DNA from: Isoperla grammatica
Taxonomy: Eukaryota > Arthropoda > Insecta > Plecoptera > Perlodidae
Length of the DNA: 64,000 nucleotides
Assembly: GCA_945910005.1 (NCBI GenBank)
Contig: OX246749.1
Coordinates: 30,644,311 to 30,708,310, forward strand
Direction of reading: 5' to 3'
Shown: positions 9,175 to 52,100 of the stretch, piece by piece
Position numbering within the stretch: position 1 is the stretch's first letter
Layout of the letters: every line of letters begins with the position of its first letter
Position numbers and translations under genes: made by a program
Notes under the pieces: model-generated
Told to the model about the DNA's origin: nothing
Seen by the model: the letters and a program-made list of their open reading frames with translations, nothing else
Database searches by the model: none

Positions 9175-9327
9175 GCAAAGCAATCTTTTATTGAAGGGCA
9201 AGGATTATTTAAATCTGGCCATGTTTTTGATTTGACGGAATCTCGAGATGGTGTGGTTAATTTCATAACGTCGAAAGTGTTAAGGCAGACGTCAGTGAGT
9301 TTGACGCCCTATGATGTTAAAATTGAA
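9175..9327 (+). CDS. Internal exon resembling SWIM/YqaJ-associated invertebrate proteins
   Basis: A phase 0-0 exon of 51 codons lies between an acceptor (TTTGATTTAAG) and a consensus GTAAGT donor. The peptide reads EGQGLFKSGHVFDLTES in its first half and a hydrophobic VLRQTSVSLTPYDVKIE at its end. The order G-x-x-L/F-x-x-GHV followed by a beta-rich YxVxI strand resembles the region before the zinc-chelating segment in SWIM-type/YqaJ recombinase-like proteins, which are common in marine invertebrate genomes, often as mobile-derived multigene families. The chelating Cys/His residues would be in a neighbouring exon. The family assignment is tentative; that this is a real exon is better supported. 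Confidence 0.45.
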
Positions 9328-9375
9328 GTAAGTATTGTATATTTTATTTTATGTGTTGTGGTTTATACCTAGTAA

Positions 9376-10185
9376 GGTAATGGTACGGTATCGCTGATCG
9401 CGTTTCGTACTCACTTTTTTCTGTATTCCTTTGCGATATTGATCATGTGCGCAGTACATAATTGTTATTTCATGTTTTATCTGTAAGCTCCAGTTATTTT
9501 CTACCCAAATACTATCTTCTTTCAAATTAAATTATCATTTTGAAGTTGCATCGATTTGACAACACAATCACGTTAAATATGACAATATGGCGGACGTGCG
9601 AGAGCGCAGCTGTTTGGAGTACACAGGAAAAGTGAAGGCCTAACTACCTGACATCCCACGAAAGCTGGGACAGGTTAGGGGGTCAATTATATTATGTTGA
9701 ATTGACTGGGCCTATGCCTAGGCCTAGCTGCCTGACATCCCACGAAAGTTGGGACAGGTTGTCAGGATGTCTAGGCGTAGGCCCAGCCAATTCAACATAA
9801 TATAATTGACCCCCTAACCTGTCCCAAATTTCGTGGGATATCAGGCAGCTAGGCCCAGTCAATTCAACATAATATAATTGACTCCCTAACCTGTCCCAAC
9901 TTTCGTGGGATGTCAGGTAGCTAGGCCTAGGCCTTCAAACTTCCTGTGTGCTCCAAACAGCTTCGCCCTCGCACATACGCCATATTGCCATATTTAATAA
10001 CGTCAAATCGATGCAACTTCAAAACGATAATTTAATATGAAAAAAGATAGTATTTGTATTGAAAATCACTGGAGCTTACAGATAAATCATGAAATAACAA
10101 GTATGTACTGCGCACATGATCAATATCGCAAAGGAATACAAAAAAAGTGCGTACGAAACGCGATCAGCGATACCGTACCATTACC
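9376..10185. repeat. ~810-bp imperfect palindrome (foldback element)
   Basis: The left edge GGTAATGGTACGGTATCGCT is the inverse of the right edge ending CCGTACCATTACC, and complementarity continues inward through the CGCGTTTCGTAC, GATCATGTGCGCAGTACATA and CTGTAAGCTCCAGT segments. The centre (9640-9930) holds four related copies, in both orientations, of a ~90-bp module with CCTGACATCCCACGAAAG and TCAATTATATTATGTTGAAT words. No transposase frame. It looks like a foldback MITE with internal inverted duplications. Confidence 0.7.
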
Positions 10186-16300: not shown

Positions 16301-16555
16301 GCTCGCGCGAGCTGGCTCGCCCGTGTATCGGTCTGCCGGCGAGTTCCACGCTATCAAGTGCAAGTCTACTCGTAGCGAGGAGCTCGCGCGAGCTGGCTCG
16401 CCCGTGTATCGGTCTGCCGGCGAGTTCCATGCTATCAAGTGCCAGTCTACTCGTAGTGAGGAGCTCGCGCGAGCTGGCTCGCCCGTGTATCGGTCTGCCG
16501 GCGAGTTCCACGCTATCAAGTGCAAGTATACTCGTAGCGAGGAGCTCGCGCGAGC
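13375..16555 (+). repeat. GC-rich 81-bp satellite array with higher-order structure
   Basis: About 39 tandem units, mostly 81 bp with 80- and ~68-bp variants. Each holds GTGTATCGGTCTGCCGGCGA, TTCCATGCTATCAAGTGCAA and a GAGCTCGCGCGAGCT block that is a 14-bp perfect palindrome in many units. A variant unit carries GACGCGCGACCTGGCTAG instead. Because 81 is 27 codons, several frames on both strands stay open for 200-330 codons; these are repeat artefacts. Larger blocks recur: a marker variant at 13861 recurs 486 bp (six units) later, and A/B variant pairs recur every ~322 bp between 14460 and 15540. The array is a CpG-rich island in AT-rich DNA. Confidence 0.95.
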
Positions 16556-24922: not shown

Positions 24923-25159
24923 CTGTGGTACAGGGCGACGCCATCAAGCGTCTGGAATGCGCCCTGAAGATGCGAGCAGACCAAGACTGTCCGGTGGACG
25001 GGAGTTGGTCGCCGTGGCACCCCTGGGAGAAGTGTCACGGGGAGTGTGGTCAGACGGGGTTGCAGAGACGTAATCGGACCTGCGACAACCCCGAGCCCCA
25101 GCTGGGGGGCTCCTACTGCCGGGGGCCAGCGAGTGAGACGAGGTCCTGCCAGTTACCAG
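24923..25159 (+). CDS. Receptor exon: linker and TSP1 repeat 1
   Basis: Phase 1-1, 237 nt, acceptor TTGTGCTTGCAG, donor GTAGCG. A short linker (GDAIKRLECALKMRADQD) leads into a TSP1 repeat starting GSWSPWHPWEKC, with the three-tryptophan WxxWxxW layer, CHGECG, the RxR layer (LQRRNRTC) and closing CRGPASETRSC. The WxxW motifs are typical C-mannosylation sites. The CHGEC segment lacks the Ser/Thr needed for O-fucosylation. Confidence 0.85.
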
Positions 25160-28100
25160 GTAGCGCCACGTCCAGGGGTCATAGCTATACTGCATGCCAT
25201 GATGGGTGCCCATATTACCTCATAATAATACACGTACTATACACAATATTCATAAAGTTGTCCCAACAAAAGTATTCTGATGCTTAAGACACTGCCGAGT
25301 CCAAGGTGACAACTTAATTTTCTACTTCGAAAATTCCTATCATCTGATGTAAACATGTCCATTGGGGATAGTTTAAAACCTTCCGTTGCTTACCTGTAAA
25401 GGAGGGTGTGGCCAAACCGCCTGTGCACTCGACTAAGCCGAACCATGCATTTACGAATGTGTGAAAGAATGCCAGTTATCTGTTGATTTTCTTTCAATTG
25501 GCTCGGTTGAAAGAGGGTAGACTATGACCTGAGATCGGTATGCGAATACTTTCGTTGGGACTAGTGTACAATATATCCTGTGCACCTACATAAGAAACCA
25601 TTGCACAACAACCGAGACACAGTATTGTGTGGTGTCATTACGTATGTACCCATACAAACCAGAAGAGATTTTAATAAATATGTTTGGATGGTACGAGACA
25701 TTTAGCCTACCTGTAGCTCTCAACATTAAAATAAAGCAAACTTATAATACTTTTGACCATTTTTCACAGACGAAATAGATCACATTTACAATACAAACTA
25801 ACCCTAGTAATAACAAAAATGTTTCCTGCTCCTCAAAGTACAAAAGGAAATAACAAAAACTGTAGCATTTTCCTTAGGCCTATTGTTTTTAATGTCTGTC
25901 CTATTAAATTGATTCACAAAGTTGGTCAGTAAATAAACTACAAATACAATGAGATATAGGAAAAACAGTGAAGAAAACAAAGTACTGTTCTCTCTTGTTG
26001 CCGTGTTGAGGCTGCTCCCCCAAGGAATACGAGACGATGTTGTTGGGAGATCCACTACGCAGCGCTCAGTATGAAGTAATCAAAGTCGTCCACGAACGTT
26101 TTCCCGCGCTGGCCGACCGATGTCTGACCAACACTTGCCGCTACGAGACGGTCGAGAGCGTCTTGCAGGAAGGAGCCGTAGGTGACATCCTGTCTATCCT
26201 GTTACCCTGATCTTACTCTCACACTACGTGCGTCTTGCACGGGGGAGCCGTAGGTGACATCCTGTCTATCCTGTTACCCTGATCTTACTCTCACACTACG
26301 TGCGTCTTGCACGGGGGAGCCGTAGGTGACATCCTGTCTATCCTGTTACCCTGATCTTACTCTCACACTACGTGCGTCTTGCACGAGGGAGCCGTAGGTG
26401 ACATCCTGTCTATCCTGTTACCCTGATTTTACTCTCACACTACGTGCGTCTTGCACGAGGGAGCCGTAGGTGACATCCTGTCTATCCTGTTACCCTGATC
26501 TTACTCTCACACTAGGTGCGTCTTGCATGAGGGAGCCGTAGGTGACATCCTGTCTATCCTGTTACCCTGATCTTACTCTCACACTACGTGCGTCTTGCAC
26601 GAGGGAGCCGTAGGTGACATCCTGTCTATCCTGTTACCCTGAACTTACTCTCACACTACGTGCGTCTTGCACGAGGGAGCCGTAGGTGACATCCTGTCTA
26701 TCCTGTTACCCTGATCTTACTCTCACACTACGTGCGTCTTGCATGAGGGAGCCGTAGGTGACATCCTGTCTATCCTGTTACCCTGATCTTACTCTCACAC
26801 TACGTGCGTCTTGCACGAGGGAGCCGTAGGTGACATCCTGTCTATCCTGTTACCCTGAACTTACTCTCACACTACGTGCGTCTTGCACGAAGGAGCCGTA
26901 GGTGACATCCTGTCTATCCTGTTACCCTGATTTTACTCTCACACTACGTGCGTCTTGCATGAGGGAGCCGTAGGTGACATCCTGTCTATCCTGTTACCCT
27001 GATCTTACTCTCACACTACGTGCGTCTTGCACGAGGGAGCCGTAGGTGACATCCTGTCTATCCTGTTACCCTGATCTTACTCTCACACTACGTGCGTCTT
27101 GCACGAGGGAGCCGTAGGTGACATCCTGTCTATCCTGTTACCCTGATCTTACTCTCACACTACGTGCGTCTTGCACGAGGGAGCCGTAGGTGACATCCTG
27201 TCTATCCTGTTACCCTGATCTTACTCTCACACTACGTCCGTCTTGCACGAGGGAGCCGTAGGTGACATCCTGTCTTAAGGCTGGTCCACACAGATTTTTT
27301 AAGCATAATATTTAAGGTTTTAAGACGTTGTTGCCAAGAACAACAATGAAAACAATCTCTTAAAACTAAAACTTTGTGTGAACGCCAGTACGTGTTTCCT
27401 ATGATCCAACTTTACGACTACGCGTTAAACCTTAAATCTTATGCTTACAAAATCTGTGTGGACCAGCCCTTACCCTGATCTTACTCAGTCTCACACTACG
27501 TAAACTCATATGCATAGAAATTTTACAGGCGACTATTGAAGGAAGTCTAATACTAATCTAACTGTTCTGAAACTAAACTAATCTACAATATTACCACTCT
27601 AATCTAGCCAAGGATTACAATATACAGCTAGTACAGCTACAATTAAAATTAAAGAATGGTCTAGTTATAAAGTCAAAGTTTTCATTTATAGCTTTTGGTA
27701 GTACATTCCTCAAAAATAGCAAAGATATCCAAGTAATTGCAAAACTAGCCTACTTATTAGCCATCTAATTTATTTAAACATTCAGTTGTTTAGTACTCTC
27801 AACAATCTTTGTTCTTGGCCAATGTAGGCCTATGTTAGTTTGACTTGTATGCCTTCTTGCATAATCATGTGTTATTGTTAATTTCATTGTAAATCATCTC
27901 TACCTAAGCGGGTAGCTAATGTAGCGCAGTATACAAACTATTATTACTCTATAAATAAGAATATATTTATTTATTATTTAGCCAGCCAATTGTCTTCTGT
28001 CTTCTGTTCTAGATGGACTATTGGATCTCCCTGCTTTGTGTAAAACATGATGTTGGGTGCCCTGGTAAGCTTCTTCGTATTATACTCAAAACACAGACAG

Positions 28101-31100
28101 CTCGTTAGGTTTTAGTTTTACCGAGATTCAGCAGGAATTACTCGGGTTGGAGATAATAGTCGAGGACTCGGAAAAAGCAAGGAACTCTGGTTCTCGCAGA
28201 GAATAAATGATATAGCTAAAAATTTTAAAACGATTCCGTTCAAAAAACGTCTTTGACACATTAATTAATACTTAGTGTTATCGTTTTAAGTACGTTAAAG
28301 TATGATATTGAAACTATTAAGCAGTTGGCATTTTGATTCGTTTGACCGATACAAAGTATAGCACTCATCTAGAGACAGAAAGAGCGATGAAATATAGGTG
28401 AACTTAAAAAAAAAAATTATAAATTATGATTTATGAACCAAGTTATCTCATAAAGTTGAGAAAATGTTTGAAACAAGGCAATGTTGCATTTGTCTTGTTC
28501 CGCCAGTACGAGGAGGTTGGACCAACTGGGCTACTTGGACTGCCTGCTCGGCCATATGTGGCCCCGGCTTGCAATACCGCACGCGCAGTTGTACCAACCC
28601 TCGACCGTCCACCCCAGACGTCGACTGCCAAGGAAAGGGTTTAGACTCTCAAGCGTGTACGGGCCTAGCGTGCGCCGACGAGGATGGTAATATTAATTAC
28701 ATCATTATTGGTACGCCTGAGAAATAATTTCATTTGGATTGTTTCATTTTTAAGAGTGCAACAGCCAAACTTGAAAAATTTGCAATTATTTTTGTAAATG
28801 TGTTTTCACGTGAAAATGAGTGTAAATGATATATGCAGAACGTGATTGTTATTCGTGGATACTTTAGCAAGGTCGATAAATCCCCTGGCGTTGGCTCGTC
28901 AAACTCAGTTACTGAACCTCCATTAGGGGATTAACGGACCTCGACACTTTAAATCTTGACACACACTTGAGTAGTATTTTCATAAGTAGTGGTTGTCACA
29001 CAGTCACAGCTTGGTTTGCATGATGTACGAGTCAATATGAGATAACTTAGCCAAGCAACCAACTACTGTTTGGTTTTGCTTCATTCAGTATCAGACCCTT
29101 AAGTTTAGCTCGGGCAAGGAGAGAATGACCGACAACAACCTGTCAAGCCGAAGGTTCCTAGGTTTTACTTGTAAGGTTAGAATGATTAGCTTATTTCTCA
29201 GTCTACAGTACAGAAACTTGTCACTGTTCTAGACAGCAGCTGGAGTCAGTGGTCTGAGTGGTCAGGATGCAGTACAGATACTTGTCACTGTTCTAGACGG
29301 CAGCTGGAGTCAGTGGTCTGAGTGGTCAGGATGCAGTACAGATACTTGTCACTGTTCTAGACGGCAGCTGGAGTCAGTGGTCTGAGTGGTCAGGATGCAG
29401 TACAGATACTTGTCACTGTTCTAGACGGCAGCTGGAGTCAGTGGTCTGAGTGGTCAGGATGCAGTACAGATACTTGTCACTGTTCTAGAGTCAGTGGTGT
29501 GAGTGGTCAGGATGCAGTACAGATACTTGTCACTGTTCTAAAGTCAGTGGTCTGAGTGGTCAGGATGCAGTACAGATACTTGTCACTGTTCTAGACGGCA
29601 GCTGGAGTCAGTGGTTTGAGTGGTCAGGATGCAGTACAGATACTTGTCACTGTTCTAGACGGCAGCTGGAGTCAGTGGTCTGAGTGGTCAGGATGCAGTA
29701 CAGATACTTGTCACTGTTCTAGAGTCAGTGGTCTGAGTGGTCAGGATGCAGTACAGATACTTGACACTGTTCTAGACGGCCGCTGGAGTCAGTGGTCTGA
29801 GTGGTCAGGATGCAGTACAGATACTTGTCACTGTTCTAGAGTCAGTGGTCTGAGTGGTCAGGATGCAGTACAGATACTTGTCACTGTTCTAGATGGCAGC
29901 TGGAGTCAGTGGTCTGAGTGGTCAGGATGCAGTACAGATACTTGTCACTGTTCTAGATGGCAGCTGGAGTCAGTGGTCTGAGTGGTCAGGATGCAGTACA
30001 GATACTTGACACTGTTCTAGACGGCAGCTGGAGTCAGTGGTCTGAGTGGTCAGGATGCAGTACAGATACTTGTCACTGTTCTAGAGTCAGTGGTCTGAGT
30101 GGTCAGGATGCAGTACAGATACTTGTCACTGTTCTAGATGGCAGCTGGAGTCAGTGGTCTGAGTGGTCAGGATGCAGTACAGATACTTGTCACTGTTCTA
30201 GACGGCAGCTGGAGTCAGTGGTCTGAGTGGTCAGGATGCAGTACAGATACTTGTCACTGTTCTAGATGGCAGCTGGAGTCAGTGGTCTGAGTGGTCAGGA
30301 TGCAGTACAGATACTTGTCACTGTTCTAGATGGCAGCTGGAGTCAGTGGTCTGAGTGGTCAGGATGCAGTACAGATACTTGACACTGTTCTAGACGGCAG
30401 CTGGAGTCAGTGGTCTGAGTGGTCAGGATGCAGTACAGATACTTGTCACTGGTCTAGAGTCAGTGGTCTGAGTGGTCAGGATGCAGTACAGATACTTGTC
30501 ACTGTTCTAGATGGCAGCTGGAGTCAGTGGTCTGAGTGGTCAGGATGCAGTACAGATACTTGTCACTGTTCTAGACGGCAGCTGGAGTCAGTGGTCTGAG
30601 TGGTCAGGATGCAGTACAGATACTTGTCACTGTTCTAGATGGCAGCTGGAGTCAGTGGTCTGAGTGGTCTGGATGCAGTACAGATACTTGTCACTGTTCT
30701 AGATGGCAGCTGGAGTCAGTGGTCTGAGTGGTCTGGATGCAGTACAGATACTTGTCACTGTTCTAGACGGCAGCTGGAGTCAGTGGTCTGAGTGGTCAGG
30801 ATGCAGTACAGATACTTGTCACTGTTCTAGACGGCAGCTGGAGTCAGTGGTCTGAGTGGTCAGGATGCAGTACAGATACTTGTCACTGTTCTAGAAGGCA
30901 GCTGGAGTCAGTGGTCTGAGTGGTCAGGATGCAGTACAGATACTTGTCACTGTTCTAGACGGCAGCTGCAGTCAGTGGTCTGAGTTGTCAGGATGCAGTA
31001 CAGATACTTGTCACTGTTCTAGACGGCATCTGGAGTCAGTGGTCTGAGTGGTCAGGATGCAGTACAGATACTTGTCACTGTTCTAGACGGCAGCTGGAGT

Positions 31101-34100
31101 CAGTGGTCTGAGTGGTCAGGATGCAGTACAGATACTTGTCACTGTTCTAGACGGCATCTGGAGTCAGTGGTCTGAGTGGTCAGGATGCAGTACAGATACT
31201 TGTCACTGTTCTAGACGGCAGCTGGAGTCAGTGGTCTGAGTGGTCTGGATGCAGTACAGATACTTGTCACTGTTCTAGAGTCAGTGGTGTGAGTAGTCAG
31301 GATGCAGTACAGATACTTGTCACTGTTCTAGACGGCAGCTGGAGTCAGTGGTGTGAGTGGTCAGGATGCAGTACAGATACTTGTCACTGTTCTAGACGGC
31401 AGCTGGAGTCAGTGGTCTGAGTGGTCAGGATGCAGTACAGATACTTGTCACTGTTCTAGAAGGCAGCTGGAGTCAGTGGTGTGAGTGGTCAGGATGCAGT
31501 ACAGATACTTGTCACTGTTCTAGAGTCAGTGGTCTGAGTGGTCAGGATGCAGTACAGATACTTGTCACTGTTCTAGACGGCAGCTGGAGTCAGTGGTGTG
31601 AGTGGTCAGGATGCAGTACAGATACTTGTCACTGTTCTAGACGGCAGCTGGAGTCAGTAGTGTGAGTGGTCAGGATGCAGTACAGATACTTGTCACTGTT
31701 CTAGAAGGCAGCTGGAGTCAGTGGTGTGAGTGGTCAGGATGCAGTACAGATACTTGTCACTGTTCTAGACGGCAGCTGGAGTCAGTAGTGTGAGTGGTCA
31801 GGATGCAGTACAGATACTTGTCACTGTTCTAGAGTCAGTGGTCTGAGTGGTCAGGATGCAGTACAGATACTTGTCACTGTTCTAGACGGCAGCTGGAGTC
31901 AGTGGTGTGAGTGGTCAGGATGCAGTACAGATACTTGTCACTGTTCTAGACGGCAGCTGGAGTCAGTAGTGTGAGTGGTCAGGATGCAGTACAGATACTT
32001 GTCACTGTTCTAGAAGGCAGCTGGAGTCAGTGGTCTGAGTGGTCAGGATGCAGTACAGATACTTGTCACTGTTCTAGAGTCAGTGGTGTGAGTAGTCAGG
32101 ATGCAGTACAGATACTTGTCACTGTTCTAGACGGCAGCTGGAGTCAGTGGTGTGAGTGGTCAGGATGCAGTACAGATACTTGTCACTGTTCTAGACGGCA
32201 GCTGGAGTCAGTGGTCTGAGTGGTCAGGATGCAGTACAGATACTTGTCACTGTTCTAGAAGGCAGCTGGAGTCAGTGGTGTGAGTGGTCAGGATGCAGTA
32301 CAGATACTTGTCACTGTTCTAGAGTCAGTGGTCTGAGTGGTCAGGATGCAGTACAGATACTTGTCACTGTTCTAGAAGGCAGCTGGAGTCAGTGGTCTGA
32401 GTGGTCTGGATGCAGTACAGATACTTGTCACTGTTCTAGAGTCAGTGGTGTGAGTAGTCAGGATGCAGTACAGATACTTGTCACTGTTCTAGACGGCAGC
32501 TGGAGTCAGTGGTGTGAGTGGTCAGGATGCAGTACAGATACTTGTCACTGTTCTAGACGGCAGCTGGAGTCAGTGGTCTGAGTGGTCAGGATGCAGTACA
32601 GATACTTGTCACTGTTCTAGAAGGCAGCTGGAGTCAGTGGTGTGAGTGGTCAGGATGCAGTACAGATACTTGTCACTGTTCTAGAGTCAGTGGTCTGAGT
32701 GGTCAGGATGCAGTACAGATACTTGTCACTGTTCTAGACGGCAGCTGGAGTCAGTGGTGTGAGTGGTCAGGATGCAGTACAGATACTTGTCACTGTTCTA
32801 GACGGCAGCTGGAGTCAGTAGTGTGAGTGGTCAGGATGCAGTACAGATACTTGTCACTGTTCTAGAAGGCAGCTGGAGTCAGTGGTGTGAGTGGTCAGGA
32901 TGCAGTACAGATACTTGTCACTGTTCTAGACGGCAGCTGGAGTCAGTAGTGTGAGTGGTCAGGATGCAGTACAGATACTTGTCACTGTTCTAGAGTCAGT
33001 GGTCTGAGTGGTCAGGATGCAGTACAGATACTTGTCACTGTTCTAGACGGCAGCTGGAGTCAGTGGTGTGAGTGGTCAGGATGCAGTACAGATACTTGTC
33101 ACTGTTCTAGACGGCAGCTGGATTCAGTAGTGTGAGTGGTCAGGATGCAGTACAGATACTTGTCACTGTTCTAGAAGGCAGCTGGAGTCAGTGGTCTGAG
33201 TGGTCAGGATGCAGTACAGATACTTGTCACTGTTCTAGACGGCAGCTGGAGTCAGTGGTGTGTGTAGTCAGGATGCAGTACAGATACTTGTCACTGTTCT
33301 AGAGTCAGTGGTCTGAGTGGTCAGGATGCAGTACAGATACTTGTCACTGTTCTAGACGGCAGCTGGAGTCAGTAGTGTGAGTGGTCAGGATGCAGTACAG
33401 ATACTTGTCACTGTTCTAGACGGCAGCTGGAGTCAGTGGTGTGAGTGGTCAGGATGCAGTACAGATACTTGTCACTGTTCTAGACGGCAGCTGGAGTCAG
33501 TGGTGTGAGTGGTCAGGATGCAGTACAGATACTTGTCACTGTTCTAGACGGCAGCTGGAGTCAGTGGTCTGAGTGGTCAGGATGCAGTACAGATACTTGT
33601 CACTGTTCTAGACGGCAGCTGGAGTCAGTGGTGTGAGTGGTCAGGATGCAGTACAGATACTTGTCACTGTTCTAGACGGCAGCTGGAGTCAGTGGTGTGA
33701 GTGGTCAGGATGCAGTACAGATACTTGTCACTGTTCTAGACGGCAGCTGGAGTCAGTGGTCTGAGTGGTCAGGATGCAGTACAGATACTTGTCACTGTTC
33801 TAGACGGCAGCTGGAGTCAGTGGTGTGAGTGGTCAGGATGCAGTACAGATACTTGTCACTGTTCTAGACGGCAGCTGGAGTCAGTAGTGTGAGTGGTCAG
33901 GATGCAGTACAGATACTTGTCACTGTTCTAGAAGGCAGCTGGAGTCAGTGGTGTGAGTGGTCAGGATGCAGTACAGATACTTGTCACTGTTCTAGAGTCA
34001 GTGGTCTGAGTGGTCAGGATGCAGTACAGATACTTGTCACTGTTCTAGACGGCAGCTGGAGTCAGTAGTGTGAGTGGTCAGGATGCAGTACAGATACTTG

Positions 34101-37100
34101 TCACTGTTCTAGAAGGCAGCTGGAGTCAGTGGTGTGAGTGGTCAGGATGCAGTACAGATACTTGTCACTGTTCTAGAGTCAGTGGTCTGAGTGGTCAGGA
34201 TGCAGTACAGATACTTGTCACTGTTCTAGACGGCAGCTGGAGTCAGTAGTGTGAGTGGTCAGGATGCAGTACAGATACTTGTCACTGTTCTAGAGTCAGT
34301 GGTCTGAGTGGTCAGGATGCAGTACAGATACTTGTCACTGTTCTAGAGTCAGTGGTCTGAGTGGTCAGGATGCAGTACAGATACTTGTCACTGTTCTAGA
34401 GTCAGTGGTCTGAGTGGTCAGGATGCAGTACAGATACTTGTCACTGTTCTAGAGTCAGTGGTCTGAGTGGTCAGGATGCAGTACAGATACTTGTCACTGT
34501 TCTAGACGGCAGCTGGAGTCAGTGGTCTGAGTGGTCAGGATGCAGTACAGATACTTGTCACTGTTCTAGAGTCAGTGGTCTGAGTGGTCTGGATGCAGTA
34601 CAGATACTTGTCACTGTTCTAGACGGCAGCTGGAGTCAGTGGTCTGAGTGGTCAGGATGCAGCAAAGAGTGCGGGCCAGGATACAGGAGACGGGAGCGAG
34701 TCTGTACCGGGAGTCGCAAGAAGAAAGAGGCGACATCGCCGGCCATCTCTGGTGGTTGGTACTCACTCACTACATCACACGTGTTAGAACACAGTCGGGG
34801 AACAATTAGTTGCTGTCTTTGGCAAGGAAGAAAACATATTTCAATTATACAAAAATGTGCACACAAAGTGAACACGTTAAACACTAAATACGTACAGTGG
34901 TTGCCACAGCAGCCTAAATTTCAAAATTGGGGGGGGGGGGGGGTCATTTTGTCTAAGAAAGAAACAACAAATTTTATATAGAATTTAAATCATAATTGAA
35001 TAGAAACTAGATATGAAATAATGGCACATTTAAAAATGAGGTTATGGTTTTACTTGGTAACTCAATGAACACGTACTGTTTGCAGACAAACGCAACTTGA
35101 CACCGCGCCAGATCGCCACACAACTGGTGAAGACGGTGGATGCGGGAAACAGCTGCTCCGGGCCCAGCGAAGAGTTTGAGGAATGCAACCTTAGGGATTG
35201 TGACCGTACGTTTACACTTTACGTTGATGCGTTACATCAGAAAAGAGGCCTATCTAGAACAGATTTGTTTGTCTGTGAACATCAAAATCCATGAGTGTAT
35301 TGTCACATTGTAACCACAAGTATGAAATGTAAACAACAGAAATGACGGAAGATTTGCATTGTTGTCACACTTAGATTGTGCAATATAGACGTTGATGATC
35401 ACTATAGACTTCACACGCAGCACTAGAGTGGTGTTTGTATGTTTGTAGAACACAGTGCAAGAAAATACTAGTTCACCACATTATGCGACATTACCACATA
35501 TGTACATTTAAGTTGTGTGAGGGATAGGTTGCCAACAGCTGACCATCTACTCAGGTAAGCTGTTGGCATCCTATCTCTCACACAACTTCATTGCCCAAGT
35601 TTTCTGGCAGTCTCTTATTTACACATGAGCAATTAAAGTTGGTTTTGCTATAAGGATGATAATTAATGTAGGCTTGTAGTGTTGTGAAATGTGTCGGGTT
35701 GGTTGCAGTGAATGGCGGTTGGTCGGCGTGGGAGAAGTGGTCCGCGTGTTCGGTTACCTGTGGCTTCGGCGTCCAGTACAGAGCCCGATCTTGCAACGCT
35801 CCCCCGCCGCACGGCAGGGGCTTCCCTTGTGTGGGCCCCCCCTTGGAGATGCAGCACTGCTACTTGGGGCCTTGCACAAGTAAGACAAGAACACAAGTCT
35901 GTTCATTCCAAGTAGTTAGTCACCATCTTGCAACGCTCCCCCGCCCCTTGTGTGGGCCCCCCCTTGGAGATGCAGCAGTGCTACTTGGGGCCTTGCACAA
36001 GTAACACAAGAACACAAGTCTGTTCATTCACAGTAGTTAGTCACCATCTTGCAACGCTCCCCCGCCCCTTGTGTGGGCCCCCCCTTGGAGATGCAGCACT
36101 GCTACTTGGGGCCTTGCACAAGTAAGACAAGAACACACGTCTGTTCATTCCAAGTAGTTAGTCACCATCTTGCAACGCTCCCCTGCCCCTTGTGTGGGCC
36201 CCCCCTTGGAGATGCAGCACTGCTACTTGGGGCCTTGCACAAGTAAGACAAGAACACACGTCTGTTCATTCCAAGTAGTTAGTCACCATCTTGCAACGCT
36301 CCCCCGCCCCTTGTGTGGGCCCCCCCTTGGAGATGCAGCACTGCTACTTGGGGCCTTGCACAAGTAAGACAAGAACACACGTCTGTTCATTCCAAGTAGC
36401 TAGTCACCATCTTGCAACGCTCCCCCGCCCCTTGTGTGGGCCCCCCTTGGAGATGCAGCACTGCTACTTGGGGCCTTGCACAAGTAAGACAAGAACACGT
36501 CTGTTCATTCCAAGTAGCTAGTCACCATCTTGCAACGCTCCCCGCCCCTTGTGTGGGCCCCCCCTTGGAGATGCAGCACTGCTACTTGGGGCCTTGCACA
36601 AGTAAGACAAGAACACAAGTCTGTTCATTCCAAGTAGCTAGTCACCATCTTGCAACGCTCCCCGCCCCTTGTGTGGGCCCCCCCTTGGAGATGCAGCACT
36701 GCTACTTGGGGCCTTGCACAAGTAAGACAAGAACACAAGTCTGTTCATTCCAAGTAGTTAGTCACCATCTTGCAACGCTCCCCCGCCCCTTGTGTGGGCC
36801 CCCCCTTGGAGATGCAGCAGTGCTACTTGGGGCCTTGCACAAGTAAGACAAGAACACACGTCTGTTCATTCCAAGTGATTACCTATTGGCAAATACTAGT
36901 GCAAATAACTAAGCATTCCACCTGATAGTAAGTGTTCAGGTACAGAAGATCTTTCAAATGTAAAGGAATTACAGCTGCACCTTGCTAGACCAACACTATC
37001 ATACACAATATGTCAACGGTTATAGCAAAATAACCTAATTTAGTTTTTAAATTATATTCTCATCTGATAATGAAGCTGTCTTGCTACATAAAGTTGTCCA

Positions 37101-40100: not shown

Positions 40101-43100
40101 GGAGTGGCACCGTATGACGCCTCCAATGTTCACTACGAGACGACAGACAGGAATGTCGAGGAGGGTTTCCGACACTTTGCTGACGGAGCTTTCATTGAGG
40201 CCTCGTGCCCCGTCAACGAGGACCACTGGCTGGTACGGTCATACGTAAACACTGATACTCAACTAATAGAAATACTGCCCTAAATAAAATAATTAACCCA
40301 CTGCCATGTTTTGTACAATTTGTAAAATTAAGGGGTGTCCCATATTGACCAAATTGCAGATTTGTGATAGAACCCAAATTTGTATAAAAATACAATTTTT
40401 AATTTATTTTAGGAAACATTGTACCCTGATTATTTCTTGACGTTCTAGCCTTTTTTAAATTTCTTTTTACACTTTTGGGGATTCTTTTTTGAATTGTCAA
40501 CTTTATGGGGGATTTTATGTTTTTATAAAGCTCATTTTTCTATGAAATATAGGTAAAACAAAAACAAATCTAAATGTAATGTTGCCGGAAAGCATCACGT
40601 CCGGAGTGAACCATGACGGACTTCATGATTCGTACACGTTGCATCTCCAGGTAGAGGTGGCTGTGAGATTGGACACGATCGACGGTGTGTTGCTTCTGAT
40701 GCCGGGGGAGAACTCTGACGAATACACGGAGGTGATGTTGGAGCGAGGTCGCATCAAGCTGCGGACCTACTGCGCTGACCTCCACTCGGAGGTCGAGAGT
40801 CCCCTGGAGGCCGTCGCGGGGCAGTGGATCCACGTGGCGGTCAACAGGGGCGGGGAGCTCAGGGTGAGTACACGGAGGTCATGTTGTCTGACCTCCACTC
40901 GGAGGTCGAGAGTCCCCTGGAGGCCGTCGTGGGGCAATGGATACACGTGGCGGTCAACAGGGGCGGGGACCTCAAAGTGAGTAGACGGAGGTCATGTTGT
41001 CTGACCTCCACTCGGAGGTCCCGAGTCCCGTGGAGGCCGTCGCGGGGCAGTGGATACACGTGGCGTTCAACAGGGGCAGGGAGCTCAGGGTGATTACACG
41101 GAGGTCATGTCTGACCTCCACTCGGAGGTCGAGAGTCCCGTGGAGGCCGTCGCGGGGCAGTGGATACACGTGGCGGTCAACAGGGGCGGGGAGCTCAGGG
41201 TGAGTACACGTAGGTCATGTTGTCTGACCTCCACTTGGAGGGCGAGAGTCCCGTGGAGGCCGTCGCGGGGCAGTGGATACACGTTGCGGTCAACAGGGGC
41301 AGGGAGCTCAGGGTGAGTACAATGAGGTCATGTTGTCTGACCTCCACTTGGAGGTCAAGAGTCCCGTGGAGGCCGTCGCGGGGCAGTGGATACACGTGGC
41401 GGTCAACAGGGGCAAGGAGCTCAGGGTGAGTACACGGAGGTCATGTTGTCTGACCTCCACTTGGAGGTCGAGAGTCCCCTGGAGGCCGTCGCGGGGCAGT
41501 GGATACACGTGACGGTCAACAGGGGCGGGGAGCTCAGGGTGAGTACACGGAGGTCATGTTGGCTGACCTCCACTCGGAGGTCGAGAGTCCCCTGGAGGCC
41601 GTCGCGGGGCAGTGGATGCACGTGGCGGTCAACAGGGGCGGGGAGCTCAGGGTGAGTACACGGAGGTCATGTTGTCTGACCTCCACTCGGAGGTCGAGAG
41701 TCCCGTGGAGGCCGTCGCGGGGCAGTGGATACACGTGGCGTTCAACAGGGGCGGGGAGCTCAGGGTGAGTACACGGAGGTCATGTTGTCTGACCTCCACT
41801 CGGAGGTCGAGAGTCCCGTGGAGGTCGTCGCGGGGCAGTGGATACACGTGGCGGTCAACAGGGGCGGGGAGCTCAGGGTGAGTACACGGAGGTCATGTTG
41901 TCTGACCTCCACTCGGAGGTCGAGAGTCCCGTGGAGGCCGTCGCGGGGCAGTGGATACACGTGGCGTTCAACAGGGGCGGGGAGCTCAGGGTGAGTACAC
42001 GGAGGTCATGTTGTCTGACCTCCACTCGGAGGTCGAGAGTCCCGTGGAGGCCGTCGCGGGGCAGTGGATACACTTGGCGTTCAACAGGGGCGGGGAGCTC
42101 AGGGTGAGTACACGGAGGTCATGTTGTCTGACCTCCACTCGGAGGTCGAGAGTCCCGTGGAGGTCGTCGCGGGGCAGTGGATACACGTGGCGTTCAACAG
42201 GGGCGGGGAGCTCAGGGTGAATACACGGAGGTCATGTTGTCTGACCTCCACTTGGAGGTCAAGAGTCCCGTGGAGGCCGTCGCGGGGCAGTGGATACACG
42301 TGGTGGTCAACAGGGGCTTAGGGTGAGTACACGGAGGTCATGTTGTCTGACCTCCACTCGGAGGTAGCGAGTCCTTTGGAGGCCGTCGTGGGGCAGTGGA
42401 TACACGTGGCGGTCAACAGGGGCGGGGAGCTCAGGGTGAGTACACGGAGGTCATGTTGTGTGACCTCCACTTGGAGGTTGAGCTGAGGGTGAGTTCAACT
42501 AAGTCGTCTCACTACCTCGCACGCTGTTGAGTTCTCACCCAGCCTAGAGAGGACCGACCAGTTAGCAAGGTTGTTACCTTTCACTGCACTATAATCTTTC
42601 ATTCAAGTAATAGCTGATCTTTCTCGAAGTAATGCAGTACAGTTATTCCCATTTCTTACAAGACAATGTTTTGGTATGTCCTCATGTTTTTTTTTCTTTC
42701 TATATTTGTTTTGTTGTTTGCTTTTCTTGTTATATTTTATTATGTATTGTTATATTTATTGTCCTCCATTGCAAATCAGTTTAATAACCGACTAGGGTAG
42801 ATACATTAGATAGATAAATAAATAAATATACATAAATAATTAAAAAATAAATAAATAAATAAATATAGAGAATACATAAATTCAATATCACAAGAAAGCT
42901 CTGTGTCTGACACGCAAACTATAGTGTCTCTGTGTTGCAGGACGGTGTGTGTGAGAACGGACCGTGCGACGTGGGTATGACAGTCAACGGAGGCGAGCGA
43001 GTTTCCTTGTCTGCAACAGCAACGGAACATGAGATGACCAGCGCGTCTTGCAAGGGGAGCTTTTACATCGGCAATATCCCGCAACACTTGAGAGTAAGAC

Positions 43101-46100
43101 CATCATATGTTCTTGTAGGCTTTGGAGGCTTCATTCACTCGACAGTTAGTGTTACAATGATATGCACTTTTGTTAGTGGGGCAATTTGAAGCAAATATGT
43201 TTTTTAATTACAAACAAAAACATCTAGTAGCCTTTTTACACATTGATGAGCAATAAAGCTATCAGAAACTTCATGATGAACATATGAATCAAAATGCAAA
43301 TGCTGTATTATATCGAGGCGTCATAAATGTTCGGACAAAGAGACAACTAGCCCCCGCTAGTTGTTGCGTCGGCACGAGAAGCCAAGAAACAAAGACCAGG
43401 CTGCCAATAGGTCATCAATTGTATCATAATATCATCAATGAATCATATCAAGTGGCTCTATTTATAAACAACACGAATCATTCTACTTCAGCAGAAGGTT
43501 TAGAAAATGGGGTTGGATTTGAGGAAATAATCTAAGGGTACAATAAATAAATATAAGTAATCTGTTGGATCCTATCCCAATATTTGGCTACACCTGCTGG
43601 TATCAACGAGTTGTTAACTATATCTCGCCCGTTCTGTCCACAGAGGCAATACAAGCAACAAGTGACGGGCAGCGGTATCGACGGCGTTGAGCTGTTTCCG
43701 TCTCTCTCGGGGGTGTTGGGACATCTGGCCATAGACGGAGAGCTGGAGGACATCTCTCGGCTGTCCTCCTTGGAGGTCGCCGGTCACAGAGCTTCCTCGC
43801 GCTCAGTCAGCTTTGCAGGTAGACACTCTGGATTCTATTTGACCATCAGTTGTGGGCTTTCCTAAAGTAGGAACATCTGTGCAACCAGTCTTCAATCTGA
43901 TCATGGGCTTATAATTATCATAAATGAAAAGATGTTATGTTCTGTGTTGCGTAGATGCGTATTACGAACTGCCCATGATAATTGGCCAACAAGTCAACCT
44001 CAGGTGTTACTACAACCAAGAGGAACTGGATCCAAGTTCACACGAGCGCAATGTCGAGGCCAGCTGGCTGCGTCTGGACTCGATCATTGAAGCGATGGAT
44101 GGTAAAGTAGACGCCTTCCCTCTTTGTCCATCTAGTGATAAGCCTACAGTAATACAGCTACGTGTCGGGGTTCACAGATAAACATGTGTTATCAGTCACG
44201 TACACAAGACGGCATTCAAAACCTCGAGGGTTTGTGGTGCCTTGTCCAATGTCACTGTTTAGCTCGATGGGTTGTGGGCTAAAATTGATAACAGGGGAGC
44301 GTACTTCAAGTATAAAATCACCAGGGTTTTAGTCACTGCTGCCCCAAATAATTAACTAGTCATATTGTAATTCCTCTTAGAGATGAATTAGATATGTTGT
44401 GTAGAGCACATTTCTCCGACTGCATAATTGCCATGCAACAAACGTAATGACTCACCAGCGTATCTCAGCTGTGTCTCCTTGCAGGGCAGCCAACCGTCAA
44501 TGTAGCTGAGCTGTATCTCCTTCATTCCATTTCTTTATTTACCGGCAACAGGGCATAGGGGGGCCCAGGGCCCCACAAGTGCGATACAATAAAAAGAATA
44601 ACTCGTGTCTTGCAGGGCAGCCAACTACTAGCGACGTGGTCGTCTACTCAATCAAAGACAACGGCAGAATAACACACCTGACGGCGCCTTCTTACCACAA
44701 CCGGGAGGCGGTGGAAGGTTTCTACCAGTGTCGGGTGCTGAAGGAAGGGAGAGAGACCATTCTCGTTGCGTACGGAGTTTCCTTGCTTGATTCATACATA
44801 GGTAACCATTCTTTGCTTCATTCTGGATGTTGACACTCTAGTCTAGTCCCACTTACAAGTTGAACAACACTAGGGGTGTGCGAGCCTACGATTATCAAGT
44901 CGAGCCGAGCCGTGCCGAGTTAGAGAAAAAAAGCTTGATTTTCGAGCCGAGCCGAGCTTTTAAAATAGCGTTAATTGTAAATTTACAGCTGCATTTTATG
45001 TTGGTGCAATGCGATAGGAAGTGTATGTATACCGAAATTTCGGTTCGTCTAAGATAAAGTACATCTTTGTTTATTTATAACATATGTAAGTTACATAATA
45101 ATATTATTATAGGTTTACATAATGTAACCCTATACAGCCCTGTTATTGTTGCACAGTAGGTTGGTAAAACAGTTTAGTTGAACTGTTTTACCGACCTTGG
45201 GTTGCACTAGCGTGGCCATTTAGTTCACAGTATCGACCATAGATCGCATGGTAGTTGCATTATTAGGGAGCTTAGAGAGTGTATGAATACAGTAACAGCA
45301 ACTTTTCAACTTCTCGACTTGTTTTTTAAAATGCATTTGTATTTCAGTAGAATATTAGGACATACTAAAGTAAACTAAATTTCGTGTGAAATATTGATTT
45401 TATTGCAACTGAATCTACAAACAGATCGAAATTCCATATCACAATGTCTGATATAAATAACGTTATAATACAGTTGGGGTTACTTTGTACTCACTGGACG
45501 GTTGCAGTCACCTTACCATTGCGGAACAAAGTTTGGCTAGGCCTAGAACTTTCGTGAAAATTAGAGCTAGATGTTTATTGTTTACTGTGAAAAGCAGAAA
45601 GCATCTGTTTTTCTACTCGCAGAATAACGAAACATCGTGCTGTATCTAGAGATGTAACATTTTATTCTCACGAGATCGGGACCTAGGGAAAGCCCAGCTA
45701 GGCCTTGTCCTAGGCCAGGTACCCAGAAAAGTATCGTTCTCTTAATTTATGTTGGGCCTAAAACCCCGATTTTTTTAGAACTTCATCGTACTTGCAGACA
45801 CCTAAATATTCGTTTCTGCCTTTTGGATTCTTCAGTCTGCGTTTATAGAAGTATATTTAATTAAAACCGCGCGACGACTGACATTTTTAGGCCTAGGCCT
45901 TGGCCTAGACAGCTCGGCTCGGGAATATCGAGCCGAAAATGAAGCTCGGCTCGGTACCGAGCTTAAAAAAAAGCTCGAAAAAGCTCGTAAATTCGAGTAC
46001 TCGCACACCCCTAAACAACACCAATCATTACAAGAAGTTATAGTCATTTCACTTTAGTTTTGTTTGTTTTAGGTATTAGAGATATGATTGACAAAGCAAT

Positions 46101-49100
46101 CATAATTCTTGCACTGTTGGCACTACTCATGGCCATCCACCTCCTCATCTTCATATGTTGCATGTACAGCCACGATAACAACACGTAAGTGCCGTCATTC
46201 CACAACTATCAATATATGACCTAGTTTTGAACCGGCCATCTTGGTATACTTGGCATTGGCTTCATACTTGTAAGATTACATTGACATAGTTTAGTGGGTA
46301 GGTTCCACAGCCTTGTGATTGTTTCAGATGTTGGGACTATCTCTGCCTCCACCTTCCTTGGGGGGGCGGTAAGCCGTTGTCTCGTTCCACAGCCTTCTGA
46401 ATATTGTAGATGTTGGGACTATCTCTGTCTCCACCTTCCTTGGGGGGCCGGCAAGCCGTTGTCTCGTTCCACAGCCTTCTGAATGTTTCAGATGTTGGGA
46501 CTATCTCTGTCTCCACCTTCCTTGCAGGGCCGGCAAGCCGTTGTCTCAAGCCAGTTCTGGGACTATCCCGGTCGAGCAAATGTGGAGTAGTCCTTGTGAG
46601 AGTGATGAGTCGGAGTTAAGCTGGGAGCCGCCATTACCTCCGATACCCGGCAATGGCTCCAATGACAAGGTACCGAAATTAGTTCAGTCCAGTATTTAAC
46701 TAAATTCAAAATTACATGTTTTATAAAAAAAAAAACTTATTAAATTAACAAATTAAAAAATTGGTACCCAGTCCAGTATTAAATCCAAGATCTAAGTAGG
46801 CCTATTCTAACTTGGTGGTGGAAAATTTACTGTCACTCGGAAAAAACATTTAATATTAACAAACAGATTTTTTTTAAAAGCTTCTCCCTAAACACATTTA
46901 CAGTACTTATAGGTTTTTCGTATTTATACGTGATTTCCATATGGTCCCAGCCATTTCCCATAAGAATCAATGTTAAAATAATTTAACTATACGTTATTTG
47001 ATTATACGTTATTCTCGGTTATACGCAACAGAAATTGTTCCCCCCAGACATCATGGTAAGGGTAGCGATTATACGCTAATTGGTGTCACACTGACCCTAG
47101 CCCAAGTTTCGGGTAGACATTAATTATTTAATATTTCTAGCTCAGTTTATCGGCAGTACTTACTCCTTGATGTCTCGCTGTCCCATGTGAACGAAAACTG
47201 TGACGCTCGAAGAGAGTACTCCCTTCTGAAGTCCAGTTTTCGTTTGGGTCACCGAAGAACGGACCTCACTTCACCACTTTCAAATGCCAACTGAGCTTTG
47301 ATATTTGTTTTTTTCTAAAAACCTTAGCAACTCAAACAACAATTCTATTAGAACAAAAACTTGAACTCTACTGTCTCCATAATAATCATAACACTGCCTT
47401 CTACAAATTCTATCTCTCTAAGCTTCCTGAATAATCATGACACTGTTTCCTACTGATGCCACATTGGTTTTATTTGTCATCCGAAATCACTTCCTGGAAG
47501 CGCAAGCTTTATCTCGTTCGGGATATGCAGCTGTGAATGCGCGAGAATGGAATGTTGTTATTGTCAAGCGGTCACCCCACCTCGCTCCCCTCCCCTCCTC
47601 CCATTCGCTACCCTTGCTCACGTCCGGCTCTTGGCAGGTAGCCCAAGCCCCGAGGCATCGTATAGCGCCAGCCCCTCACCCCTCCCACCATACTACGTTT
47701 CACAGAGCGTCTGTCTGTCCATGCAGATTGTTCCAAGTTTGTTGGTGTTTTTAAATTGATACCACGTGTTCATAATGGCTTGTTTTGTCGATTGGTTGTT
47801 TTATTACTATCCTCTGATTTTATAGTAACATTTCACGTATTGATCTGATCGTTTCTTCAATTTGTTGATTAAAAATAATTATCCGTGCCCCCGACCTTGC
47901 CGACGTAATAGGCCTGCAGGCCGAGCGCGGGCGCTGTGTGATACATCCCTCGCGGTCGCTGAGCCGACAGCTGCCGCCAGCTCGTGATAGCGGTCTCCCG
48001 GTGACGCGCGGCCGTACAGTCGCGTCCAAAAAACACTTACGTAGCGGTCGCTGAAACTTGTTTCCGCGTTGACATTTATAACCGAAAAACGGTTAATCGA
48101 GGTAAATATTGATCTGGGACGGGAAAAATAAAGCGATCGATGCTGAAAAACGGTACGGCGAGCAACGATATTTGGAATAAAATGATTTAGATATCACTTT
48201 CGGTCGGGACTATTCGAAATAAAGACGAGGATTTTCACGACGGAACATGTAAGATATATATTTAGGCCTAAGCACCATTTCAACCCCCCCTTCCCCCCCC
48301 CGCTCCTACGTGCGCTAGAACACACCGTGAAGGGAATTTTTGTACTGCAGAATAAGGAGCCTGCCGACTCACTATTTCCACTCATTGCAAACGAAAACAA
48401 ATGTAATTGTAGTTATACGTTTTCTGTACTTATACGTTTTTTTCGGTTTGGCCCTTGGAAAACGTATAATTGATGCTCCACTGTAATTAAAACATAAACA
48501 CTACAAAGTAACAGGTAGCAACATAAGCCTACTGATTGCATGTAAATGTTTTAAAGACACCTTGGAGGCTAGTCTAGGACCAGCTACCAAGCCGAGAGCA
48601 AACCGCTCAACATACCCGAACAAGTTACAGGAGTTCCCGCTCACAACCCCCTCGAGCACGTCCTCCGGGCAGGTCAACGTGACCATGGAGGTCGGACTGT
48701 TTGACAAAGACGTTGTCCAGGATCCAGGGGGGGACGAAAGAAGCATGCACGCCATCCCACTTAGCCCACACCACAGTGTGTACGATATAGAGGGAGAAAA
48801 AGGACAGAACTTTTTGCCAGATTTCAATTATGACATGTCCTGGTGTCATAAAACCACAGCAGGTACGTGCACACACCCAGGGTGTTACATGTGCGATATA
48901 GAGAAAGAGGAGGGGCAGAACTTCTTGCCAGACCTAGAGTTTGACATGTCCTTCTGTAATAAAGCCAGCAGCAGGTACGTGCACACACCCAGGGTGTTAC
49001 ATGTGCGATATAGAGGAAGAAGACGGGCAGAACTTCTTGCTAGACCTAGAGTTTGACATGTCCTTCTGTAATAAAGCCAGCAGCAGGTACGTGCACACAC

Positions 49101-52100
49101 CCAGTGTGTTACATGTGCGGTATAGAGGAAGAAGACGGGCAGAACTTCTTGCCAGACCTAGAGTTTGACATGTCCTTCTGTAATAAAGCCAGCAGCAGGT
49201 ACGTGCACACACCCAGGGTGTTACATGTGCGATATAGAGGAAGAAGACGGGCAGAACTTCTTGCCAGACCTAGAGTTTGACATGTCCTTCTGTAATAAAG
49301 CCAGCAGCAGGTACGTGCACACACCCAGGGTGTTACATGTGCGGTATAGAGGAAGAAGACGGGCAGAACTTCTTGCCAGACCTAGAGTTTGACATGTCCT
49401 TCTGTAATAAAGCCAGCAGCAGGTACGTGCACACACCCAGGGTGTTACATGTGCGGTATAGAGGAAGAAGACGGGCAGAACTTCTTGCCAGACCTATAGT
49501 TTGACATGTCCTTCTGTAATAAAGCCAGCAGCAGGTACGTGCACACACCCAGGGTGTTACATGTGCGATATAGAGGAAGAAGACGGGCAGAACTTCTTGC
49601 CAGACCTATAGTTTGACATGTCCTTCTGTAATAAAGCCAGCAGCAGGTACGTGCACACACCCAGGGTGTTACATGTGCGATATAGAGGAAGAAGACGGGC
49701 AGAACTTTTTGCCAGACCTATAGTTTGACATGTCCTTCTGTAATAAAGCCAGCAGCAGGTACGTGCACACACCCAGGGTGTTACATGTGTACACGTACAT
49801 GTAATATTTAGTTCTGAGAGATGTGTGTTCTGTTTGACACAAAGAGGTCGTACAGTACTACTGTTTTGCGAAGCGACGAGATAACTAGAGCCTCAGGAAA
49901 GAAGTTGTAGAAATATTGTAAATAGTAGATTAGATGAACTAAAGGTATAAGATAGGCTAGATGTCTGAAAACCAAATGTTTTATTAATTTTGTTATGAGC
50001 AGAAAGTATTCATTGCAATACCAAATATTTCTGATATTAAATAATGTATACTTTCTAAGAGATATTAATTGATGCATAAAAACAATAACTGAACATGCTA
50101 GTTTAAATATGATCCTAACCTTTTTGTTGCATCATTAAAAACTCCTGTATGGAATATTGCTCAACAACACCCTTTAAATGAAATAATCTTCTTTGAGATC
50201 TAAAATTTGTGTTCTATTTTCATTTAAGAGGAAGGACTACTAGCCAATATTAAAACCCGCGAAATTAACGTATTTTCGTCATATCGCAATAACGCCACAC
50301 AATATCGAAACAGTGACACCTACGCATATTTTGGATTCGTGAGAGCTCAATACCAAATGAAAAAGATTTCGTAGATTGTAGTAATTATAGCTGTAATTTC
50401 TAATTGTAAATTAGTTCAATTAAAAATAATAATTATAATTACTGCAAACTAATAAATCTTTTTCATACGGTATTGAGCTCTCACGAATCCAAAGTATGCG
50501 TAGGTGTCACTGTTTCGATATTGTGTGGTGTTATTGAGATATGACGAAAATAAATTAATTTCGCGGGTTTTAATATTGGCCAGTAGTCCTTCCTCTTAAA
50601 GGTTATTTTCCTACTTCAACTAAAGTCACTCTACACAGCAAAAGGGTTAAGTGAGGAAATTAGCAAGAGTTGATGTACTTTATAATCTTAGTACAGTACA
50701 GTATGATTGCCAATGGCATGATTTGACGCTGCCCCATTTTTCGAACGTGTATTTTTCACTGCCAACCAAATCATCATATGAATAATTTAATATTCTGAAA
50801 ATGGACTTTTTGAAAAATTATAAAAACTGCTTGCGCTGCCCTATGCCTGCACTGCCCAATGCTTGCACTGCCCAATGCTTGCACTGCCCAATGCTTGCAC
50901 TGCCCTGTGCTTGCACTGCCCAATGATTGCACTGCCCAATGCTTGCACTGCCCAATGCTTGCACTGCCCTATGCTTGTACTGCCCAATGCTTGCACTGCC
51001 CTGTGCTTGCACTGCCCAATGCTTGCACTGCCCTATGCTTGCACTGCCCAATGCTTGCACTACCCAATGCTTGCACTGCCCTGTGCTTGCACTGCCCAAT
51101 GCTTGCACTGCCCAATGCTTGCACTGCCCTATGCTTGCACTGCCCAATGCTTGCACTGCCCTATGCTTGCACTACCCAATGCTTGCACTGCCCAATGCTT
51201 GCACTGCCCAATGATTGCACTGATCATGCTTGCACTGCCCTGTGCTTACACTGCCCAATACTTGTACTGCCCAATGCTTGCACTGTCCTATGCTTGAACT
51301 GCCCAATGCTTGCACTGCCCTATGCTTGTACTACCCAATGCTTGCACTGCCCAATGATTGCACTGACCATGCTTGCACTGCCCTGTGCTTGCACTGCCCA
51401 ATGCTTGTACTGCCCAATGCTTGCACTGCCCAATGCTTGCACTGCCCAATGCTTGCACTGCCCAATGCTTGCACTGCCCAATGCTTGCACTGCCCAATGC
51501 TTGCACTGCCCAATGCTTGCACTGCCCAATGCTTGCACTGCCCAATGCTTGCACTGCCCAATGCTTGCACTGCCCTATGCTTGCACTGCCCAATACTTGC
51601 ACTACCCAATGCTTGTACTGCCCAATGCTTGCACTGCCCAATGCTTGCACTGCCCAATGCTTGCACTGCCCAATGCTTGTACTGCCCAATGCTTGCACTG
51701 ACCATGCTTGCACTGTCCAATGCTTGCACTGCCCTATGCTTGCACTGCCCAATGCTTGCACTGCCCTGTGCTTGTACTGCCCAATGCTTGCACTGCCCAA
51801 TGCTTGCACTGCCCTATGCTTGCACTGACCATGCTTGCACTGTCCAATGCTTGCACTGCCCTATGCTTGCACTGCCCAATGCTTGCACTGCCCTGTGCTT
51901 GTACTGCCCAATGATTGCACTGCCCAATGCTTGCTCTGCCCAATGCTTGCACTGCCCTGTGCTTGCACTGCCCAATGCTTGCACTGCCCAATGCTTGCAC
52001 TGCCCAATGCTTGTTCTGCCCAATGCTTGCACTGCCCTGTTGAGTGGACAAGCTGTGTCTCAACAGGTTCTCCATGAACAGCAACAACGCTGAAAGCGGC

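Follow-up and report, generated by a model that had tools for sequence, protein, structure and literature searches.

In the human gene IFI6 (6-16), a minisatellite reportedly carries tandem donor copies at an exon end, with multiple donors said to be in use. Boundary repeats are already known in human genes from the work of De Grassi and Ciccarelli (2009, PMC2812944), who described internal tandem repeats at exon–intron boundaries of genes in segmental duplications; the variable units there average 30 bp, repeated four times, in segmental-duplication paralogs. Intron gain has been reported in Cryptococcus through the expansion of DNA repeats (PMC2395259) and in potato RdRp through tandem duplication (PMC4974935), in both cases with the creation of whole new introns. 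Here we analyse a 64-kb stretch of the 874-Mb genome of the insect Isoperla grammatica (contig C17, 30644311–30708310; the window), in which a receptor-like gene carries seven minisatellite arrays, each covering exactly one exon end, and we compare it with kinase loci where arrays of the same kind occur in unrelated genes.

The seven arrays resemble the human boundary repeats (PMC2812944) in that minisatellite units lie at an exon–intron boundary, vary between recent paralogs and are able to alter intron structure: boundary overlap is found in 7/7 arrays, and the repeat number varies among paralogs. They differ in their dimensions (units of 58–162 bp over the receptor and kinase arrays, up to ~90 copies), in occurring seven to a single gene, and in being joined by a kinase locus (L046) whose array is single in the genome. 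With Cryptococcus (PMC2395259) and potato RdRp (PMC4974935) they share a tandem duplication that alters gene structure near splice sites, whereas here it is one end of an existing intron that is multiplied. Two further papers (PMC6823432 and PMC7536079) are unrelated to boundary arrays. No report of boundary arrays in such abundance was found in the open-licence literature.

Tandem Repeats Finder (TRF) located the seven arrays, A1–A7, with periods of 64–157 bp, within the receptor-like gene (Table 1). These include all the arrays listed in an earlier note on this DNA and, as that note had said, the units differ in length and sequence from one array to another. Dissection unit by unit places each over exactly one exon end of the gene model (7/7); A6 and A7 are placed by phase and splice sites, because their exons, E16 and E17 of the tail, align poorly to orthologs. 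The exon and intron shares of each unit, entered by hand and in some cases approximate, range from 20 nt of exon with 62 nt of intron (A6) to ~143 with 4 (A5), A4 having 17 nt of intron and 140 nt of exon; the intron part never exceeds 62 nt in either the receptor or the kinase arrays. The earlier note had described the units as copied boundaries, which is right as to their position over one junction, but the intronic-looking part of A5 (GAGTACACGGAGGTCATGTTGT) is copied exon: 19/22 of its bases match the same exon at 40720 (its best match outside the array has only 14/22 bases). The A5 founder extended only ~2–5 nt beyond the donor, and the unit is nearly all exon-derived. Similarly, A6 does straddle the E16 acceptor but does not repeat it, the true AG being found only in the last copy (TTGCAG) and the other two reading TTGGGG. 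A processed mRNA or cDNA template was considered as a source and ruled out, all units carrying intron sequence (in A5 only a few bases).

The extra copies differ from one another, with a mean identity of 0.95–0.98 in five arrays. GT or AG is intact in 51/51 extra copies examined (A1, A3, A4, A5 and A7), including GT in 43/43 of those in the donor arrays A1, A3, A5 and A7. In A3, 16 nt kept by the exon copy are missing from all 8 extra copies. By inspection, microhomology is present at the founder ends of A7 (TGTGTAC, 7 bp) and A2 (CAG). In a low-threshold repeat run over 24900–52300, none of the purely intronic arrays had a period >29 bp. A 195-bp element resembling a miniature inverted-repeat transposable element (MITE) interrupts the last A1 copy and was not seen in the paralog loci having both flanks aligned.

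The boundary-array pattern is not confined to the receptor-like gene. From 139 Pkinase matches, 40 loci (43 pieces, 44.6 kb) were picked before their sequence was read; the choice was made by hand, taking short-frame pieces as likely internal exons, with 20 loci followed by 12 + 8 in list order. Donor-straddling arrays with periods of 58–162 bp are found in 5/40 of these loci (Table 1), and in this sample the excess beyond this gene on which the earlier note had staked its claim is seen against uniform placement (P=0.009), though not clearly against GC-matched placement (P=0.07). A DNA search, made for the L046 array among those of the kinase loci, found it only once in the genome. Arrays are commoner on receptor exons (7/19) than on kinase pieces (5/43; P=0.03). 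An unplaced 61-bp array in L047 and a 38-bp intronic array in L032 were counted as misses; small repeats of period <=25 were left uncounted, as was a 16-bp array in L054 (NLK-like, named by inspection), which begins at donor +1. The kinase exon of L047 we take to be TSSK-like. Its 61-bp x6.6 array (799–1201) lies near the kinase exon, and contains CTTCAAGTGAGTAG, possibly the donor of the preceding exon.

Table 1 Features of the receptor-like gene (window coordinates) and donor arrays of the kinase loci
Feature	Position	Strand	Basis
Receptor-like gene (TSP1/LamG/transmembrane (TM))	24923..52244	+	Phase-consistent stop-free model, Pfam, ortholog alignment
A1: 72-bp array, 16 copies, E2 donor 26177/26178	26158..27503	+	TRF, unit dissection
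MITE-like element, 195 bp, terminal inverted repeats AGGCTGGTCCACACAGATTTT, interrupting last A1 copy	27276..27470	.	Not in paralog loci with both flanks aligned
Small exon (52 nt), absent from first model, MDYWISLLCVKHDVGCP	28013..28064	+	Ortholog alignment; phase checked by hand
A2: 64/53-bp array, 87 TTCTAG acceptor copies, E4 acceptor (exon from 34623)	29206..34662	+	TRF
A3: 121-bp array x8.7, E6 donor 35879/35880	35788..36876	+	TRF, unit dissection
A4: 157-bp array, 9 copies, E7 acceptor (exon from 38531)	37258..38670	+	TRF, unit dissection
A5: 113-bp array x15.2, E10 donor 40863/40864	40775..42482	+	TRF, unit dissection
A6: 82-bp array, 3 copies, E16 acceptor (exon from 46528)	46302..46547	+	TRF, unit dissection
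A7: 112-bp array, 9 copies, E17 donor, inferred in-use 48974/48975	48779..49789	+	TRF, dissection, frame, paralog
16-bp array, ~76 copies, wholly intronic, ending ~30 bp before last exon (52067)	50828..52037	+	TRF
L046: CDK6-like exon, 84 bp x1.9 donor array			Conserved kinase sequence reaches last codon before donor
L047: 109/135 bp donor array, repeated exon end ...AAPEILQ/GT			Exon end by eye from kinase frame and GT
L057: 58 bp x5.7 donor array			Exon end by eye from kinase frame and GT
L060: GSK3-like exon, 115 bp x3.4 donor array			Conserved kinase sequence reaches last codon before donor
L065: 162 bp x2.0 donor array			Exon end by eye from kinase frame and GT

The significance of this placement depends on the null. 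For the receptor-like gene, founder units were placed at random in the gene with the surplus copies removed, conditional on their not being exon-only; the probability that 7/7 straddle one junction is then 5e-5 for uniform placement and 0.005 for GC-matched placement. The window was chosen for this pattern, so these values are biased and the kinase sample is the fairer one. There, with exon limits approximated by those of the hidden Markov model match, the probability that at least 5/7 straddle one junction, given not exon-only, is 0.009 uniform and 0.07 GC-matched. The earlier note had held that random intronic satellites would not hit boundaries so often; the kinase loci have more boundary arrays than uniform placement gives, but not clearly more than GC-matched placement. 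Pooling the 12/14 arrays gives 1.6e-6 uniform and 8.4e-4 GC-matched, or 2.7e-6 and 1.6e-3 when the 16-bp receptor array is counted as a further miss, its odds being assumed. With GC matched, a larger share of boundary hits is expected, which is consistent with a GC-linked seed bias. Donors make up 5/5 kinase arrays (P=0.06) and 9/12 overall (P=0.15). The junction falls at varied positions within the unit, with at most a lean towards exon sequence (mean intron fraction 0.36, t-test P=0.07). In the extra copies, 4/52 columns inside splice windows are variable vs 74/523 elsewhere, a difference that is not significant (P=0.14). A motif common to the units was also sought: 4/21 pairs beat at least 57/60 shuffles (doubled units; the shuffles did not preserve dinucleotides), A3–A7, for example, scoring 20 where the shuffles averaged 9.7. 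The three pairs inspected, however, were long gapped chains on either strand without a visible common core, and the idea was dropped. Rfam gave no match at gathering thresholds.

Translation through individual splice sites was tested for six arrays (A1–A5 and A7). In A1 the proximal donor is open and the next four meet a stop (5 of 16 donors tested). In A3 the proximal donor gives an open, in-frame exon, the second an open but frame-shifted one, and the next three hit stops (5 tested); in A5 the proximal donor keeps frame, the second is again open but shifted, and two further ones hit stops (4 tested). A4 is in frame and open only with the last of its nine acceptors. Of the 87 acceptors of A2 just two leave the frame open and unshifted: 34623 and, 117 nt upstream, 34506. 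Among the sites tested, each of these five arrays keeps frame at its proximal site, alone or with another. We infer that the exon-proximal sites are those spliced, and the surplus copies probably end inside introns and are spliced away. As in IFI6, donor copies stand in tandem at exon ends; here the use of most distal donors tested would shift the frame or run into a stop. In A7, the frame of the last exon is missed by the donor of copy 1 and kept by that of copy 2, and the donors of copies 3 and 4 hit stops. Copy 1 lacks 1 nt (copy spacing 111), so that copies 1–2 read in one frame, as they also do, open, in one paralog, and E17 has apparently captured one A7 unit, a gain of 37 residues. The observation of the earlier note that each array carries one kind of splice site and none adds a complete extra exon holds, apart from this seeming lengthening of E17. 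Each array holding one junction, no new complete intron with both sites was found, and the open frame needed none.

The gene model on which these placements rest was built by a dynamic-programming search of splice sites and frame around exon candidates marked by eye. It comprises 19 recognised coding exons, upstream first exon(s) not being found, and ends with a TAA stop at 52242–52244. The layout is TSP1 x4, a LamG-like domain, an Ig-like part, a TM exon (46073–46184) and a cytoplasmic tail, the Ig-like and TM assignments being made by inspection. Pfam TSP_1 was found in 4/10 submitted reading frames and Laminin_G_2 in one, slightly below cut-off. A protein search gave relatives in Anabrus simplex, Schistocerca gregaria, Blattella germanica and many Lepidoptera amid many TSP1-only matches, and alignment of seven orthologs backs E1–E14, with the TM region backed in Lepidoptera. 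Recognition of the small 52-nt exon moves the A1 donor from 26181, given in the earlier note, to GTAGGT at 26177/26178. A homology search with the C-terminal half of the protein gave no match, and E15–E18 therefore rest on phase, the Lepidoptera TM alignment and one paralog. The start of E17 is uncertain: the model has 48592, which is doubtful because one paralog carries a stop just after it, and by hand a better fit is obtained with a same-phase acceptor preceding 48631.

All seven arrays lie in one gene, as had been noted, but that gene is one of 27 copies. A genome DNA search with the A2 array matched 123 places at ~25 loci, and matches to E12–E14, grouped by hand, define 27 copies of the gene, 20 of them whole and 7 interrupted by an insertion, that are 93–99% identical to the window copy over these exons, in addition to six short weak matches. 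The copies have introns; ten are on C17, dispersed over ~6.6 Mb, 15 on C14, over ~11.6 Mb, and one each on C108 and C75. Pieces were fetched from 20 of the 27 loci. All fully covered exon instances of E2–E10 in the 20 loci (122/122, partly covered exons excluded) are without frameshift or stop, and exons diverge less than introns in 17/17 loci with enough sequence (2.3% vs 4.1%); therefore the paralogs look maintained. One of two paralogs followed beyond E10 has E11–E16 ungapped. The family, its exons apparently maintained, represents a large and recent expansion of an uncharacterised TSP1/LamG membrane protein.

The arrays vary widely within this family. The survey covers 22 pieces, with many arrays cut by the piece ends and unit labels that are loose (AT-rich arrays in L023 and L029 are not A7). 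A1 is one copy in 4/16 covered paralog loci, which may be ancestral or contracted, and has 3–16 copies in the other 12. The copy number of A5 ranges from 5 to 32 (the x32 in one stitched copy) and that of A6 from 3 to at least 73. In L030 (reverse complement, 3913–10000) A6 reaches x73.9 and runs off the piece end, with the true acceptor motif in 0/64 matched copies of the part read; in L029 the acceptor AG is found only in the last copy among three pattern-matched of ~5.

We consider it probable that the arrays are the product of exon-biased, partly GC-driven tandem duplications, filtered by absorption into introns and expanded by unequal exchange. Short tandem duplications (~58–160 bp) would arise often in or beside exons of this genome, favouring exons probably because these are GC-rich islands within AT-rich introns. 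A duplication wholly inside an exon would shift the frame or add residues and mostly be lost. One across exactly one junction would leave a single complete exon, splice site included, and the surplus copies would become intron sequence; being spliced out, they would make such a duplication nearly neutral and allow it to persist. The arrays would lengthen and shrink through unequal exchange and gene conversion, and an exon would occasionally capture a unit, as may be the case with A7. The 16-nt loss in the extra A3 copies and the absence of the acceptor from the extra A6 copies indicate that the exon copy stays intact while the extra copies decay. The GC-richness of exons accounts for a substantial part of the boundary excess; we infer that birth is GC- or exon-biased and that copy number is driven by exchange. 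Selective tolerance, one of the possibilities raised in the earlier note, is supported in part by the finding of one frame-keeping, stop-free site per tested array (two in A2), but alone does not explain the rarity of purely intronic arrays of period >=50 bp; the receptor introns of the window hold none, and the kinase loci none or one (the unplaced L047 array).

A number of observations weigh against this explanation. Array-bearing exons are no GC-richer than the other receptor exons (P=0.30), nor are they longer; AT-rich arrays exist in the window outside the gene, so GC is not required; and the pooled GC-matched null is still 8e-4, so GC and selection together may not suffice. With only 17 nt of intron in the A4 unit, the branch point for the proximal acceptor would fall in copied exon. 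The second paralog followed beyond E10 has an E14 short by 3 nt and an E15 that carries a 6-nt insertion and aligns at only 72.5%, and a further one carries a stop close to the E17 start of the first model. No boundary array absent from the window was seen in the 22 paralog pieces; the arrays that are absent from the window copy lie away from junctions and are an intronic 74 bp x2 array in L016, a 344-bp x8.8 array after E6 in L025 (reverse complement, 6989–10000), and several within an insertion in L020.

It is fairly unlikely, in our judgement, that junctions themselves trigger duplication, with nascent RNA, the spliceosome or R-loops stalling replication or repair and seeding arrays independently of GC. 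The pooled excess left after GC matching, the donor bias, the short intron parts and the L054 array beginning at donor +1 would fit such a process, but the pooled value includes a gene chosen for its pattern, the kinases alone fall to 0.07, the junction is not centred in the unit, and the founder ends of A7 and A2 carry ordinary microhomology. R-loops, suggested in the earlier note, are not favoured, the GC skew of the units (+0.27, +0.26, +0.09, -0.02, -0.14, -0.14, -0.19) having no consistent sign. We regard as possible, if doubtful, the broader proposal that junctions, 5' splice sites above all, are birthplaces of minisatellites genome-wide in this insect lineage through a process tied to transcription or splicing beyond GC and selection, which would steadily lengthen introns with decoy sites and now and then add protein segments.

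That the repeated sites are kept for a function, multiple donors or acceptors giving alternative splicing, we think unlikely. The intact GT and AG dinucleotides, the fewer variable columns in splice windows and the second frame-keeping acceptor of A2 are what function would predict; however, the column difference is not significant, the extra A6 copies have no acceptor, almost every distal site tested shifts the frame or hits a stop, and copy number differs widely among paralogs, four of which lack the A1 array altogether. Chance, in the sense of one striking gene picked from a repeat-rich genome, is distinctly unlikely: outside the gene the window does hold six or more arrays with periods >=50 bp and the GC-matched kinase value is weak, but uniform placement is improbable in the separately chosen kinase loci as well as in the pooled set, and the receptor introns hold no purely intronic array of such period. 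Inflation of the arrays by misassembly is highly improbable, as the copies differ from one another, one A1 copy contains the MITE-like element unseen in paralogs, and the arrays are also found in the paralog loci, in copy numbers particular to each.

If the rate in the kinase loci holds genome-wide, tandem duplication across one junction would be a common route of intron growth and a source of decoy splice sites, and under the broader junction proposal ~1 in 8 sampled kinase loci would show a junction-born minisatellite. Intron growth is visible in progress in this family, where the same boundary is found at 1, 3, 5 and up to 16 copies. The arrays also provide a natural experiment in spliceosome choice among up to ~90 near-identical sites, and on a possible mutation bias to junctions.

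Two other repeats were observed in the window. A long imperfect inverted repeat, MITE-like and read by eye, lies in the last intron of the receptor-like gene at 50230–50600. A GC-rich 67/81-bp array of ~40 copies, with long open stretches in several frames, occupies 13375–16555.

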